Assembly: GCF_001591705.1 (NCBI RefSeq)
Contig: NZ_BCVK01000012.1
Coordinates: 1 to 43,531, forward strand
Length of the DNA: 43,531 nt
Source: Lactococcus cremoris subsp. cremoris NBRC 100676
GTDB lineage: Bacteria; Bacillota; Bacilli; Lactobacillales; Streptococcaceae
Direction: 5' to 3'
Under the pieces are notes generated by a model. The model made no database searches and was not told where the DNA came from. It saw only the letters and a list, made by a program, of their open reading frames with translations. The position numbers were made by a program, and so were the translations under genes. Positions 784 to 8,195 of this stretch are shown piece after piece (the first letter of the stretch is position 1; every line of letters starts with the position of its first letter).

Positions 784-3700
784 ATGTACTATTCTAAGCA
801 CCAAAAAGGTTATAAAACCAGTCATAAAGTACAAGTGACTCACTTCCGTACTTGGAAATCGGGGAAAAAATGGGTTTATGCTTTTATGGCCTTTAGTCTT
901 CTTGCAGGAGATATTGGTTCAATTCCCCTACTTCAGCATGGACAAGAACAAATAGTACATGCGGCGACTTCCAGCTCAGGAACTTTAGTTCCCAATAGTC
1001 CGGCTAGTACGAACAATAATAATGTACTCGCAGGAGACGTATCTACTGCAACAAACTGGACGACCTCAAAGCTAACAGGAGCGGGCTATGGTTCGGGGAC
1101 ATCCACCGCAGGTGGCGGATGGTCAGGTGGGACTTGGACTGCGATTGCAGGCACAACACAAACCAATGCGGTCAGTCTTTTTAATCAACCGCTTGATATG
1201 ACTCAAAGCCTAACACTGTCAGGCAAGATAACGACAAGTACTAATAGTTCTGTTGCCTCAGCACTTGGGGTAATGCTCTTACCAACAGGGACCTCCCTTA
1301 GTCTCAATGTAGGGGGAACGGGAACAGGTATCCTTCCGACAGAAGGAACGCCTAATGCTATCTTTGCTGGGCGAGATATTTTTCCTCTAAACTCTGGTTC
1401 GACGTCAATTAATGGACAAAGTGTCGCCAATAATGACTGGACAGGAGGTTCTTACTATCAGATTCGTATTTCTCAGACAGGGGCGAATGGTCTTAAACAA
1501 GCGTCTGCTTCTACAAATAACACAGCCAATCCAGTTGTTGGGACAGGCACCTATAACGGTACATCTGGTGAAAGCTATGTCTTGACATGGACGCCAACTA
1601 CTGGGACTACTACAGGTTCGCTAAGTTATGCACTGACAACAGGCGGTAGCACCTATATTGTCACTTGGCCAAATCTTACCTTGCCCGCTTCAATGCAGGT
1701 AGGACTTGCCGCTTCGGCAGGTGGTTGGACATCTACGATGACCTTATACGAACACCACGCTCACTGCAAGCCGAGTCACAGCTCCGGTTCCTGTCAATTA
1801 TTTGAACAAAGTGACAGGTCAAGCGATTCCTAGTATGGGTCCGAGCACAATCACGGCGAATGTCGGGGATACCGTTGGACTATCGCTTGTTGCTCCGACG
1901 ACAAGTAGTCCCGATAGCAATAGTTATACTTTTCTAGCACCAGCAGCGCCGGCAGGCTATAATGCCAATTCTTCTACGAATACGGTAATTTCTGCAACGA
2001 ATCCTGCAAGTTCAACCAATACCGCTGCAACAAAGGTTCAAGCTGTCGCTCAAGGTGCAACAAATCCTAATGTAGTGAACGTGACTTATACGCCGAGCCA
2101 ACAGACCGTTGCTTTCAATTGGGCACTGGCCTCTGGCAGCACTCTTGCAACACTTCCTGCATCTAAAAGCTACGGCGCAGCAGGAACTGGAGTTACGACC
2201 GATAGCTCGGTCGTAACTGACAATCCTTTCGCCTCTACGACCCTCCTTAAAAACTATGCCAGTGACTTGACCTCAGCTGTCCCTGCAGGCTACAACATTA
2301 CGGATATCACGAATGGCACGACGAGCTATACAGGTGCGACAACTGCAGCAACACTGGCAGCTTTCGCAAGCAGCCAACAACCCGACAGTCAGTGCGACTC
2401 AAGCAAGCAATAACTATACGGTCACGCTCACAGCTGCAGCACAAACGGCAACCTTCAACTATGGCTATATCAACACGGCACAGCACACGCCGGCTGTACC
2501 CAGCAGTATGACAACGACAGGAGGGACGACAGGAGCGAATGTCGCACAATCACTACCAACTGGCTGGAACACGCCTTCCAATACAGCGATAGCGGCGAAT
2601 AAAATCCCTTATGGATATTATATCTCTGCCATCTATGCAGGAAACTCTGCAACAGGAACACCGATAGCCACAGGGACGGGAATGGGACCACAAACAACGT
2701 CTGGTGCATGGGCTAATTTTCCTGCAACAGGTCAGACCTACGGGGCAACGGGCAATCAATACTATGTTCAACTCTCGCCATATTCAGTCAGAACTTCTTG
2801 GAAAGTTTCTGTATTAGGGACGGACCCTGATTACCTTGATGGGCTTGGAAATCAGCCTAATGGTGTTGTGGTAGGTCAAGCAACTCCCAATAATCAAGAC
2901 AATCTGTTTAGTTATATTGCTACTAATAGCGGTATATCTATGACGACGACAGATAATATCGTCTATACTGATCCTGCAGGAATTCGCTATATCATCACAA
3001 GTTATACCTATGCGACGACTGCTGGTGGGACTGGAACGACTTATTCGACATTTGAGGCTCTTCTTGCCGCAAACCCATACATTCCTGCTGGGCTTTATAA
3101 TCAACCCCTACAATTTGTCACTGTCAACATGATTTCTGACCAGACGAGCATCACATCTAATTCGACAAGTAGCACAACACCGTTAACCCCAGCAACGAAC
3201 TATATGCCTATCAACGATATCACGGCAAGTACAGATATTGATGGTGTAGATGATGACGGTCTACCTTATGCCATCAATGGCTATAATGCCGTGACCAATA
3301 TCGTAGGCGGCACGACTAACTACTGGGGAGATGCGACAAACTCTCTGAAACTTCCGATTGGCTCATACACAGAAACTTACTATGCGCTTAATTACTTGAG
3401 ACTTCAGGCTTACCAAGCACAGTCAACATATACGACAGTCGCTAGTTTTCTTCAAAGTTTGTCTAGTGCCAATCTGGCAAAATATACGGTAAGTTCAACA
3501 ACCACACTAACCGTCGCTGACGCAACGACTATCTCGGCAAATAATCAGCATATCATTCCTAAAGCCGGCTCTTACAACCCAAGCTCGGATATTCTTAGCG
3601 CGACAAATGCTGATGGCACTAATGCTTTTGCATCTGTCAATAATGTTCCGGTCGGGGTGATTATCACAGACAGAGCAGGTAATAATGTTTGGGTCAACAA

Positions 3701-4193
3701 CATGACCGTTAACTTACCCAAAAACAAATTGGTCGTGGGGACTTATAGTGAAAAGTATTATGCTTTAACTGCTAAAGGAGCTGCGGACTATACGACTTGG
3801 AAAGCAACAGCAAGTCCAAGTGCTAACACAGTGGGCGACTTTATCAACTCTGGTCAAACAACAAGTGGTGATTATGTGACAGCCACGACGCAACTCACGG
3901 TTACAAACTTTATCTTACCCTTTGCAGGTGGGAGTGGAAATCAATTTCTCTATCTAATGATAAGTCTAGCTGCAATCGGAGCGCTCGGACTCTACTTTAG
4001 TAAGCGACGTAAAGAAGAAGAATTAGAGTTCGTCCCTGAGCAAGCGGGTTATGGAGCTTCAACAAATACTAAGGGCAACAAGGCAAGGTTTTTCCAAACA
4101 CTAAGAAAAACCAGACCCTATCGTAAGGTCTTCCATAGCAAAAACCGTATCCATCTGGCGCAAACGCAGCGAAAGGAGGGGAAAAATGATTAA
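784..4193 (+). pseudogene. yhgD: Putative tip pilin, disrupted by two frameshifts (YhgD-like)
   Basis: The gene encodes a large LPXTG-type surface protein, by position the tip adhesin of the pilus. The N-terminus has a KxYKxGKxW-type signal peptide (RTWKSGKKWVYA) cleaved near Ala-Ala at about residue 60. A Gly/Ser/Thr-rich lectin-like beta domain follows, then Thr-rich repeats ending in motifs such as QTATFNYGY that recall MucBP-type modules. The C-terminus has LPFAG (3915-3929), a membrane segment and an unusually long basic tail of about 65 residues. Frame 1 runs from 784 to about 1745. Homologous sequence then continues in frame 2 to about 2360 and in frame 3 to the stop at 4191, so two indels split the gene. 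The first piece alone (349 residues) lacks the wall anchor. Without the shifts the protein would be about 1,130 residues. Confidence 0.8.
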
Positions 4194-4218: not shown

Positions 4219-4307
4219 CCTTAGAACTTCATTTAGCTACAAAAGTGCGATAAGCAGAGATGAGCGCACAGCCTCAGACTCAATCAAACAAAAATAGGAG
4301 AAAAAAC

Positions 4308-6131
4308 ATGAAACTCAATTCACTTAACAAAAAATTTGCCCTTGCTAGCGTTAGTCTTCTGACAATTAGCACATTAGCAGGATTTGGTGGGCTAGTAAAT
4401 GTTAATGCTAAAACTACGGTTGTAACTGACCAAGTCTCAAATGGTGAAGTTGCTATCTATGCCCAATCAGCAGCAGGTAATGCAGTCGCAACGACCAACA
4501 ACGATGGTACAAACCCTGATACAGGTGTTGCCAACAACCAAACAGGTGGACAAGCAGGAAATACTGGTACAACTAAAAATGACGGGAGCCAACAATCAAG
4601 CCTTGAAGGTTCAACTCCGAGTGTAATGGCTAATGTGACATTCTCAGCTACCAAATACACAGGAACAGGCGTTCCTACGGGTGTTGCCGATTCGGCATTC
4701 AATGGTGCAAAAGTCACAGCGACTTCAGCTCCTTCAGGACTTGCTGATTTTACTGGCTTGGCAGATGGTTATTACCTTTTCCATCAAGTAACAACAGTCA
4801 ACGGGATTACAACAGTTGGCGACTTTATCGTCCAAGTCAATCATAATGATAGTCAAGCCGGCATCGTCAACGTCTATCCAAAATTAGATATGTCAAGTTC
4901 GGCAGGTTTAGGGACAAGTGCCACAACAAACGCCGATGATAACTTTAATGGTTCAACACCAAACCAAATTGCTAATCCAAATGCAACAGGCGATTCTGAC
5001 CAAACACTTACAAACTCAGATAATAATGCTGGTAATGAAAATCTTGCTAATGGAACATGGGTAAACAATGGTGATAACCAAAATACAACGACTGCAGCAG
5101 CCGGAAATACAGTGAGCTGGAATGTGAACACAGTCTTTGACTCTTCACAAACAAATAATGGAAATGGTACAACTGGTGTAACAGGAACTTATGTTGTGAC
5201 CGACCAATTACCAAATAACCTTGTGGATAGCTCAACAGCTGCAGATGGTACTGTTATCGTGAATGTCACAGACGGTAGCGGAGCGAAAGTCGGGACATTG
5301 ACAGCTACAACAGACTATACAGTCACAAATGACGGTAACGGTAAAATCATTGTAACTTTGACTCCTGTAGGTCAACAACATGCGGCGAGCTTGCTTGGAA
5401 ATGCCGATGGTGCATTGAATATCATCATTCCTTCTACGGTTAAGACGGCTGTTGTTGACTCAGCAAAAGACTCGGCAACAACAGCCATCACGAATGCTTA
5501 TGGGGCTGACCTTTCAATGACTGCCGCTGTTCAGTCTACATTGAATGTTGGTGGAGTTGACATGACGAAGACAGACGCCTCAACGAGCGATGCCTTGAAA
5601 GGTGCAACATTTACGGTAGTCCGTGCGGACAATAAAGCTGATGCCCAAGCTTTTGTCATTGCCAATGCAGCCTACTTTAATAACTCGGCAGCTGGCGGTT
5701 CAGTGGCAAATCCAACTTTGGCTAAGGCAGCCTTTGTCACAGGGGATTCCAATGGTAACGCAAGTACGACAGCAACCACACCAGTGACGTTCACGACTGG
5801 AGAAGATGGTATTGCAACATTTAGCGGTTTGAACTTGGTAGATGACAATACAGATACTACTAATACAAGCAACTACTACCTTGTCGAAGTTGCCGCACCA
5901 AAAGGTTATCAACTTCCAGCACCAAATACAGCAGCAAACTTGACAGGCGCTGTGACAGCTAGTACCGCACCTACTGCGACTGACACAACCATTACTAATA
6001 TCAAACCATTTGCTTTGCCATTTACTGGTGGACAAGGATTGGCAGGGATTATCGCTATTGCCACAGTCTCAGGAGTTGTAGCCTTTGCCATCAAACGTCG
6101 TAAAGATAATGAAGAAGAAGTCGTAAAATAA
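4308..6131 (+). CDS. yhgE: Major (backbone) pilin, LPXTG-anchored, intact (YhgE-like)
   Basis: 607-residue precursor of the pilus shaft. The start at 4308 is chosen over the upstream ATG at 4260 because AGGAG at 4296-4300 is correctly spaced and the signal peptide (MKLNSLNKKFALASVSLL) begins there; cleavage is near the Ala in VNAKT. Pilin hallmarks are all visible: a VYPK pilin motif with Lys192, the residue sortase C normally links to the next subunit; an E-box YYLVEVAAPKGY with Glu527 in the last Cna-B-like domain, which normally promotes an internal Lys-Asn bond; and the sorting signal LPFTG at 570-574 followed by a hydrophobic segment and a KRRK tail. It is the only intact gene of the four-gene operon. 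With the sortase gene interrupted, polymerisation is unlikely, and monomers could at best be attached by a housekeeping sortase encoded elsewhere. Confidence 0.9.
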   Translation: MKLNSLNKKFALASVSLLTISTLAGFGGLVNVNAKTTVVTDQVSNGEVAIYAQSAAGNAVATTNNDGTNPDTGVANNQTGGQAGNTGTTKNDGSQQSSLEGSTPSVMANVTFSATKYTGTGVPTGVADSAFNGAKVTATSAPSGLADFTGLADGYYLFHQVTTVNGITTVGDFIVQVNHNDSQAGIVNVYPKLDMSSSAGLGTSATTNADDNFNGSTPNQIANPNATGDSDQTLTNSDNNAGNENLANGTWVNNGDNQNTTTAAAGNTVSWNVNTVFDSSQTNNGNGTTGVTGTYVVTDQLPNNLVDSSTAADGTVIVNVTDGSGAKVGTLTATTDYTVTNDGNGKIIVTLTPVGQQHAASLLGNADGALNIIIPSTVKTAVVDSAKDSATTAITNAYGADLSMTAAVQSTLNVGGVDMTKTDASTSDALKGATFTVVRADNKADAQAFVIANAAYFNNSAAGGSVANPTLAKAAFVTGDSNGNASTTATTPVTFTTGEDGIATFSGLNLVDDNTDTTNTSNYYLVEVAAPKGYQLPAPNTAANLTGAVTASTAPTATDTTITNIKPFALPFTGGQGLAGIIAIATVSGVVAFAIKRRKDNEEEVVK

Positions 6132-6181
6132 GCTAGATTACCTTTGATAAAATGAAAATCTAATTAGTAAGGAGGGGAATA

Positions 6182-7471
6182 ATGGCAAGAAAAAAACCAA
6201 AAACCTCCCGTAAAAAGGGCTTTAGTTTACGAAATATACTAAGTGTGATTTTGGCAATTATCGCAATCGGATTACTTTTTTATCCGATTGTGGTTAATTA
6301 CCTAGCAGGACAACAAAACGTCAAATCAGTCCAAAAATATGATAATCAACTGTCCACAATTGGAAACTCGAAAGTTAAGTAACTACTTGCTCAGTCTCAA
6401 TTATACAATGCACAGCTTTACAACGAATACATCTATGATGCAAGTCAGCATATTGCATGGAATAAACCTATTCCCAACTATAACAATGTTTTAAAAGTTG
6501 ATTCTACAGGAATGATGGGCTTTATCACGATTCCACAGATTAAGGTCAATGATATTCCAATCTATCATGGAGATTCTGAAACGATTTTAGGGCTTGGTGT
6601 TGGTCATGTGCCCCAATCTTCTTTACCAATCGGAGGAAACAATACTCACACCGTTTTGCCTGCACATTCTGGTCGAGTGAATGATACTTTATTTACTAAT
6701 CTGGACAAACTTAAGAATGGGTACGTCTTTTATTTACACGTCTTAGATTTAACTCTAAAATATAAGATTGATGATATTCGGATTGTTGCCCCAAATCAAG
6801 TTTCGTCATTGAGCATCGAAAAAGGTCGAGATTTAGTAACTTTAGTTACTTGTTATCCGACAGGGATTAATAATAAAAGGTTATTGGTCACTGGCGAGCG
6901 TGTTCCTATATCTAAGGTATTACCCCAAGAAAAAGTCCAACGAAATCAGTTTGGTTATAATTTTTGGGTGATGCTTGGTTCGGGTCTGTTACTGCTTTTG
7001 GGGCTTCTCTATCTTTTATGGTTACTCTTAGGCTCGAGACATAAGCTGTATCATGTTGCTGACAGAAAAATAGAAGAACCAAAGCTTTCAGATGGACAGT
7101 TAAGGGGAGAGTTTGGAGAAGGGTTTTATTTGACTGACTCCAAGAAACTAGCTAATCAATGGTTAGATGAACAAGCTCATAAAAAAAATCAAAATCCTGA
7201 TGAACTCCTTATAAATGTTTATCGCCTGAAAAAAATAAAAAATTTATCTCGTTGGATATTTAAAGATAAGACAGAAAACTGGCAACATTATATCCTTTAA
7301 AAACAAGGATATGGGGATGAGAAACATGCGCTTGTTGTGGGTCCTGTATTTACCAGTGATAAGAAAGTCATGAAATATGCTTTGAAAACAGAAGAAGCAT
7401 TTGAGCATCTAAAGTATATTAAATGCTTGAATAAAAATAAATCAAAGAAAGGGGGAGGAAGAATTGACTAA
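6182..7471 (+). pseudogene. srtC: Class C pilin sortase with a C-terminal DUF3990-like domain, two in-frame stops
   Basis: One frame reads as a pilus-specific sortase, broken by TAA at 6380-6382 (codon 67) and TAA at 7298-7300. Ignoring the stops it gives 429 residues: basic N-terminus, membrane segment about 20-40, then the catalytic domain with His162 (TVLPAHSG), Cys224 (LVTCYP) and Arg233, and a second membrane segment about 262-285. The last ~130 residues are not sortase. LYHVADRKIEEP, GEFGEGFYLT and later LVVGPV match the conserved blocks of DUF3990 proteins, placed on the cytoplasmic side by topology. GGAGGGG precedes the ATG at 6182. The frame ends at 7471, overlapping the next gene by 8 bp. 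Restart at the ATG at 6512 would lack the N-terminal anchor but keep His, Cys and Arg, so residual activity cannot be excluded. Confidence 0.8.
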
Positions 7472-8195
7472 AAGGATCAAATTAATGAGCATTTTAGCGT
7501 TTGCTTTGGTTTTGATTTTTGGATTTGTCAGTCAAAACGCTTTTGCTGATAGCCGTTTAACAATTGTAAAATATGGATTAATCCCAGGGGCATCTGGTTT
7601 TAGCGAGAATCAGACGACAAATGATGGACTAAAAATTAACAACCTCCCCTTGGATAATTTGGGCAATGAGCTTTCGGTAGTGTCTGGAATTCATTATTTA
7701 GTCTATGAAATCTCACCTATTGGGGATGGTTCAGAGCTTACGGCAACAAATCCTCCACAATCAAGTTATAGAATTTCGAAAGAAATTGCTGACTTAGTGA
7801 CTGATTCAAATGGTGTGACCAGTCTTTCTGTGAGCGATGGTTATTATCTGATTGAAGAGTAAAGTAACCCACAAAAGGGTCTGCTAAAGCCTGCTCTACC
7901 TTTAGTTGTAAAGCTGCCAGTGACTGGATTGAATAATGTTTATATTTATCCTAAGTCTAGTGTAGATAAAGAAGAAACAATTAGTCCTCCACAAGCAAAG
8001 CCTCAACCTAAGCCTAAGCCGATTGAAGTTCCTAATGCACCTAAAAAGGTTGATGATTCTTCTAAGAAAGTATTTGGATTATTACCAAAAACGGGCGTAG
8101 TGAGCTCCTTACTATTGACTTCTTATGGCTTTGCTTTATTCTTGATTATCATTCTTTTAAAAAAGCACATCAAAAACGAAGAAGAAGTTAAGTGA
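7464..8195 (+). pseudogene. yhhB: Basal (anchor) pilin, interrupted by one stop (YhhB-like)
   Basis: The frame starts at TTG 7464 behind GGGGGAGG and encodes a signal peptide (residues 1-28, ending AFA), a Cna-B-like domain with an E-box-like DGYYLIEE, a VYIYPK sequence, a Pro/Lys-rich stalk (PPQAKPQPKPKP), the sorting signal LPKTG, a membrane helix and a charged tail. A TAA at 7860-7862 falls right after LIEE; the same frame continues directly to 8195, so this is a nonsense change and not an indel. The Pro-rich stalk plus LPKTG is typical of the minor pilin that terminates the fibre and is linked to peptidoglycan. Truncated at codon 132 it would be secreted without an anchor. It overlaps the end of the sortase frame, suggesting coupled translation in the ancestral operon. 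Confidence 0.8.

Follow-up and report, generated by a model that had tools for sequence, protein, structure and literature searches.

The class C pilin sortase gene srtC of Lactococcus cremoris subsp. cremoris NBRC 100676, which lies at 6182..7471 on the forward strand of contig NZ_BCVK01000012.1 (43,531 nucleotides, analysed in full and called the window here), continues behind its second membrane helix into a DUF3990-like domain with the predicted fold of an ADP-ribosyltransferase (ART). Tails of this type are basic, have lost residues that are nearly invariant in other DUF3990 proteins, and are replaced by unrelated domains in sister species. As judged from these residues, the tail probably descends from a DUF3990 protein whose catalytic site was lost, and is itself probably non-catalytic. 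We tentatively propose, as a serious possibility that still falls short of probable, that it is a real folded domain, most likely cytoplasmic, which serves as a basic, non-catalytic module to retain SrtC at the inner membrane face.

The sortase part of the gene is well defined: the class C profile NF033745 matches at 6245-6901 with 230.8 bits (cut-off 160; one TAA inside) and scores 219.2 bits in the intact sortase of the L. lactis-like locus L004. The catalytic residues H164, C226 and R235 are invariant in all seven aligned rows, and pilin genes adjoin. A preliminary description of this DNA had held that the sortase frame runs on into a DUF3990 match, and the profile search that it suggested bears this out: PF13151 (DUF3990) matches at 7043-7378 on the forward strand (58.1 bits, E 1.2e-15, cut-off 32.2; one TAA inside), and the LYHVADRKIEEP, GEFGEGFYLT and LVVGPV blocks, which by eye share one common frame, continue that of the sortase after the second membrane helix. 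The lactococcal tail profile matches at 7040-7450 with E 7.3e-49, again with one TAA inside. This TAA at 7298 interrupts the tail in this strain, as had been noted; the piece of srtC before it (6512-7297) carries both Sortase PF04203 (80.5 bits) and DUF3990 (50.5 bits, residues 178-261), and the 52-residue piece 3' of it has no Pfam match at E <= 0.1. The expected intact relatives exist. The PF13151 cut-off is exceeded in seven genus genomes out of 18, counting that of the window (G000), and in 6 of the 17 others the fused frame is open, 424-447 amino acids (aa) long and each time situated between the major and the minor pilin. The sequences of four intact fusions were also found in L. termiticola, L. 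nasutitermitis, L. hircilactis and L. taiwanensis.

Structure prediction and fold comparison likewise support the proposed resemblance to ART folds, the likeness to solved structures coming with 8 to 17% identity over the alignments; a sequence search of the PDB gave best E values of 1.2 for the DUF3990-type tail (type A) and 0.7 for a second tail type (type C, see below), which were taken as chance. The tails share with the DUF3990 family (PF13151) the FGxGFY core, the ART fold and a profile match over cut-off, whereas no DUF3990 member of the other samples was seen on a sortase, and the sortase tails are more basic and lack His/Arg and most of the A-D-D segment. Arg121 (NR) is found in 39 of 41 DUF3990 proteins not on a sortase and in none of six sortase tails, and the His of YHG in 42 of 43 vs two of six; of these six, the tails without it have Gln (two) or Arg (two). 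The window's tail also keeps a His at this position. The Gly after the His is replaced by Val in four and Ala in two tails (Ala also in 5 of 43 others), and the A-D-D motif stretch is shortened together with the residues after it, while G33, G35, Y37, A45 and G145 are present in all six. These counts refer to 44 distinct DUF3990 proteins (open reading frames (ORFs) of at least 120 aa, scored and aligned with a profile from 23 proteins of the first count), of which six are incomplete or without His or Arg; two or more of the 44 are larger proteins. The earlier conservation count on the 23 was biased because its selection pattern required YH[GA], a filter that the later count dropped. The RES/ParT/MbcT-type ART toxins, known from solved structures, have their fold in common with the sortase tail, which differs from them by the low identity, its membrane tether and the loss of DUF3990 residues; no toxin-antitoxin pair was seen beside the sortase tail.

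By analogy with the ART fold, the His and Arg would have a catalytic role in DUF3990 proteins. The preliminary description had considered that the tail might modify something at the inner membrane face, and an active ADP-ribosyltransferase acting there on a protein would fit the fold and the DUF3990 match over cut-off, but enzymatic modification is disfavoured because near-invariant DUF3990 residues are lost and the A-D-D stretch is shortened; we regard it as scarcely credible. Sensing, the other role considered there, would mean that the tail retains binding of nicotinamide adenine dinucleotide (NAD) or a similar nucleotide and, as a cytoplasmic sensor, adjusts pilus assembly to metabolism or envelope stress. 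Its fold is that of NAD-using enzymes, G33, G35 and Y37 persist in every tail and the His in two, and the free-standing DUF3990 gene of genome G422 (L103) lies between genes that resemble nadB and nadC by eye. However, the His is lost in four of six tails and the Arg in all, and sister species have other kinds of domain instead, which a specific NAD sensor would hardly allow, so that this role appears distinctly improbable.

These other domains were found among the pil-type sortases, which a search with the sortase part of L004 (19 rows at E < 1e-90) detected in 13 genus genomes out of 18. All 13 have a single long-tailed copy, with a DUF3990 tail in seven (the window's broken), a type B tail in three and a type C tail in three, and six of them also carry one tail-less pil-type copy. 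The type B tail can be aligned to the sortase domain (hhalign 98.3%, E 1.6e-14) but lacks the catalytic Cys and Arg, and is, on this alignment, a degenerate second sortase; it follows a longer hydrophobic stretch in hydropathy and could lie outside the membrane. The type C tail has no Pfam family above cut-off, but its profile finds the free lactococcal proteins L149 and L150, in which DUF3850 scores 67.7 and 71.6 bits and ASCH is just over cut-off. Profile comparison with free proteins of this type gave 87.3% (E 3.8e-6), and their FEIRKNDRDFQVGD block is lost in type C tails; the AlphaFold model of tail C (two rows) had a predicted local distance difference test (pLDDT) score of 48.2 and was left out of the fold search. 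No relation was found in profile comparison between types A and B or between A and C.

In a tree of the sortase core (95 rows), the lactococcal sortases with a tail group together (94/91), next to a tail-less clade (100/92), and types B (99/95) and C (100/100) are nested inside the DUF3990 type, the starred branches forcing at least three changes of the DUF3990 label. In a smaller tree of 31 rows, in which one of 32 requested loci had no row, the DUF3990 label needs two changes. The swap of tails therefore has moderate support. The preliminary description had named relatives without the tail as a counter-argument; such a sister clade exists, against which stand the solid profile match and the intact fusions of several species. 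The presence of unrelated domains in the same place in sister species suggests a role for the tail in placing the enzyme, not in catalysis. The same diversity, together with the conserved blocks within each type (such as ENW in type A), would also suit a platform for docking SecA, SrtA, pilin tails or cell-wall enzymes, with a fold that varies with the partner; this explanation comes without a known partner, and we consider it unlikely.

All 14 lactococcal long tails computed carry positive net charge (+3 to +15), the seven of the DUF3990 type +5 to +14 over the whole tail. Over the matched part, net charge per 100 residues is 0.0 to 8.8 in six tails vs a median of -0.6 (range -8.7 to 5.6) in 42 other DUF3990 proteins (p 6e-4, kinship uncorrected); ten sortase ectodomains range from -1.0 to 3.9. 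The basic residues after the second helix point to the cytoplasmic side for the tail. SrtC of Enterococcus faecalis is described at the septum and at foci (PMC10107303). At the foci where pilins emerge and polymerise, a basic and non-catalytic tail behind the second helix could hold SrtC at the inner membrane face. A positively charged sortase localisation signal that flanks a membrane helix, like the basic sortase tail, is attributed to Kline et al. and reportedly consists of a short stretch without a domain fold. The signal (Kline et al., 2009) is cited in PMC3516528 and PMC10107303. Given this reported signal and the basic tails, we propose that the tail may be its folded, non-catalytic version, i.e., a folded elaboration of the positively charged sortase retention domain; the cytoplasmic location, the lack of activity and the retention role are inferred.

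Several observations weigh against this proposal. One DUF3990-type tail has a net charge of zero over the matched part, and one DUF3850-type tail reaches only +3. The tail-less lactococcal pil-type sortases have a short basic end only, so that a 130-residue fold seems excessive for retention alone. The His is kept in two of six tails, including that of L004, so that residual NAD binding is possible, and in the 31-row tree the DUF3990 label may have a single origin. Finally, in three of four near pairs the tail exceeds the core in its ratio of nonsynonymous to synonymous substitution rates (dN/dS): 0.11 vs 0.06 in a type A pair, 0.35 vs 0.19 in a type B pair, and 0.38 vs 0.10 and 0.26 vs 0.46 in two type C pairs, with few changes per pair and a fifth pair saturated. 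These ratios, the broken tail of G000 and the several unrelated domains at one spot might even indicate a functionless, passive remnant of chance fusions. Yet, of the 13 genus genomes that have a pil-type sortase, 12 carry the tail unbroken, and its dN/dS stays between 0.11 and 0.38 in the four pairs, few as the changes in each are, which makes a mere remnant very unlikely.

A long tail as such is common, and in this respect the preliminary description, which knew of no standard class C sortase with such an extension, is not supported. At E 0.001, 185 of 198 order genomes match the class C sortase profile (59 over cut-off), and among the 150 class C matches listed, counted as stop-to-stop frames with the window's broken frame included, 52 frames are 370-500 aa long, 95 are shorter, and three exceed 500 aa, namely those of L212-L214 with two sortases each. 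We compared 39 distinct long tails from 34 regions, three earlier loci and plasmid pSH74, all of them net positive (+7 to +31). All but one (38 of 39) fall into one SpaA/CnaB-like family, whose iterated profile was seeded from seven of the same loci, so that these seeds match by construction; in ten scanned tailed proteins, Pfam SpaA was above cut-off in three, below it in four and absent in three. Seven of the 64 loci L151-L180 and L182-L215 gave no row, the active-site pattern being unmatched. Like the lactococcal enzymes, these sortases and the two of pSH74 have a long basic tail after the second membrane helix, but in 38 of the 39 it is SpaA/CnaB-like instead of DUF3990, and the SpaA-like-tailed sortases form a separate part of the sortase tree. 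On pSH74 (L181, 2614-5053), both SrtC1 and SrtC2 have long basic tails, Pfam SpaA matching weakly (15.0 bits) in one and being absent in the other. Five loci (L032, L033, L212, L213 and L214) encode class C sortases in frames of 582-621 aa, where a single chain holds two sortase domains. A His motif (SHN/AHN) and a Cys motif (RCEG) are present in the second domain as well, and the five form one clade (100/100).

A wider proposal is that class C sortases have at the inner face a general slot for exchangeable tails, which unrelated domains (ART, ASCH, second sortase, SpaA/CnaB) in basic and apparently non-catalytic versions would have filled several times; what they share would be a charged, folded body to position the pilus machine, and no common reaction. 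We consider this conceivable but rather doubtful. If four unrelated kinds of tail indeed do one job, sortase placement at assembly sites becomes directly testable, and sortases used for protein display on lactic acid bacteria could perhaps be tuned through the tail.

Among the sampled genomes, none outside Lactococcus and a single neighbouring genus was seen to have a DUF3990-type tail. Of 295 family genomes, 21 match the tail profile, with a fused match in the seven genus genomes and in G426; in G005 and G426 the match extends beyond the natural stop. A Streptococcaceae metagenome-assembled genome (MAG; L066) also has a sortase-DUF3990 fusion and is probably the same as G426, which belongs to another genus of the family (frame of 419 aa). 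The profile also has a weak match in a 1025-aa frame (L112), and a match in a 429-aa frame was unrelated by eye. PF13151 gave a match in 17 of the 395 genomes of the order and in 19 of the 398 of the phylum, G000 in both, and no further sortase-DUF3990 fusion was seen in these two samples: in the order, the two frames that come next in length (483 and 437 aa) do not look like sortases, and the other frames in the phylum, at 279 aa or less, are too short for a fusion. PF13151 also has matches in two control genomes out of 14, those of Lactococcus lactis and Bacteroides ihuae. In viral contigs, 38 stretches fit a pattern and none was confirmed as a tail relative, and 3 of 50,697 phage records match the tail weakly (E 6e-4 to 5e-3). 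The fusion query matches 577 plasmid records, none with one place covering 80%, and the nearest lactococcal plasmid copy is without the tail. A contig filed as a Sphingobacterium MAG (L062) looks like bin contamination, since its pil locus is lactococcal and almost the same as the one in G004.

According to Oxaran et al. (2012; PMC3516528), SrtC/YhhA of L. lactis IL1403 has 432 residues with C225, H163 and R234, is described as having membrane domains at both termini besides a domain of positive charge, and is required in active form for polymerisation of YhgE and for auto-aggregation. The L004 sortase, read from its second Met, agrees in length and positions (432 aa, H163, C225, R234). A term search of the text as available found neither DUF nor ADP-ribos (PMC3516528). 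The literature searched, with most subscription journals outside it, held no paper that links DUF3990 with a sortase, and none on an ADP-ribosyltransferase-fused pilin sortase or a C-terminal extension of class C sortases. A pilus sortase under study since at least 2012 in a laboratory strain seems to consist to about one third of a domain that is named in no paper found.

In the window, all on the forward strand, the pilus operon comprises tip pilin, major pilin, class C sortase and minor pilin in this order, identical to that of yhgD, yhgE, srtC and yhhB in the pil operon of L. lactis IL1403 (PMC3516528). The yhgD-like tip pilin (784..4193) is split into three ORFs (784-1833, 1802-2413 and 2313-4193), the last with a Pfam anchor-motif match below cut-off, and is followed by the yhgE-like major pilin (4260..6131), an ORF with a SpaA domain (PF17802, 30.1 bits) and an LPFTG anchor. 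Delimited by ORFs and profile matches, srtC encodes a basic N-terminus and a first membrane helix (6182..6382, ending at the in-frame TAA 6380-6382), the extracytoplasmic class C sortase domain (6383..6961; PF04203, NF033745) with the catalytic Cys codon at 6851-6853 (TLVTC), the second membrane helix FWVMLGSGLLLLLGLLYLLWLLLG (6962..7033; by eye and by hydropathy of intact relatives) and the tail (7040..7471; PF13151 and tail profile) with its in-frame TAA at 7298-7300 and the natural stop at 7469-7471. One TAA also lies inside the sortase match at 6179-7039. The yhhB-like minor pilin (7464..8195), delimited by ORFs and by comparison with its intact L004 counterpart of 241 aa, is interrupted by an in-frame TAA (7860-7862) and carries an LPKTG anchor in its second piece. 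With srtC, yhhB and the tip gene all broken, the whole pil locus looks decayed in G000; the in-frame stops may also be assembly errors. The assembly comprises 2.34 Mb in 122 contigs. In L. taiwanensis, the tailed locus (L059) has none of the genes lrgB-lrgA-rimP-nusA within its 14.8 kb, and a tail-less pil locus (L063, 7001-14617) adjoins them; the same four genes are neighbours of the DUF3990-tailed locus of the window.
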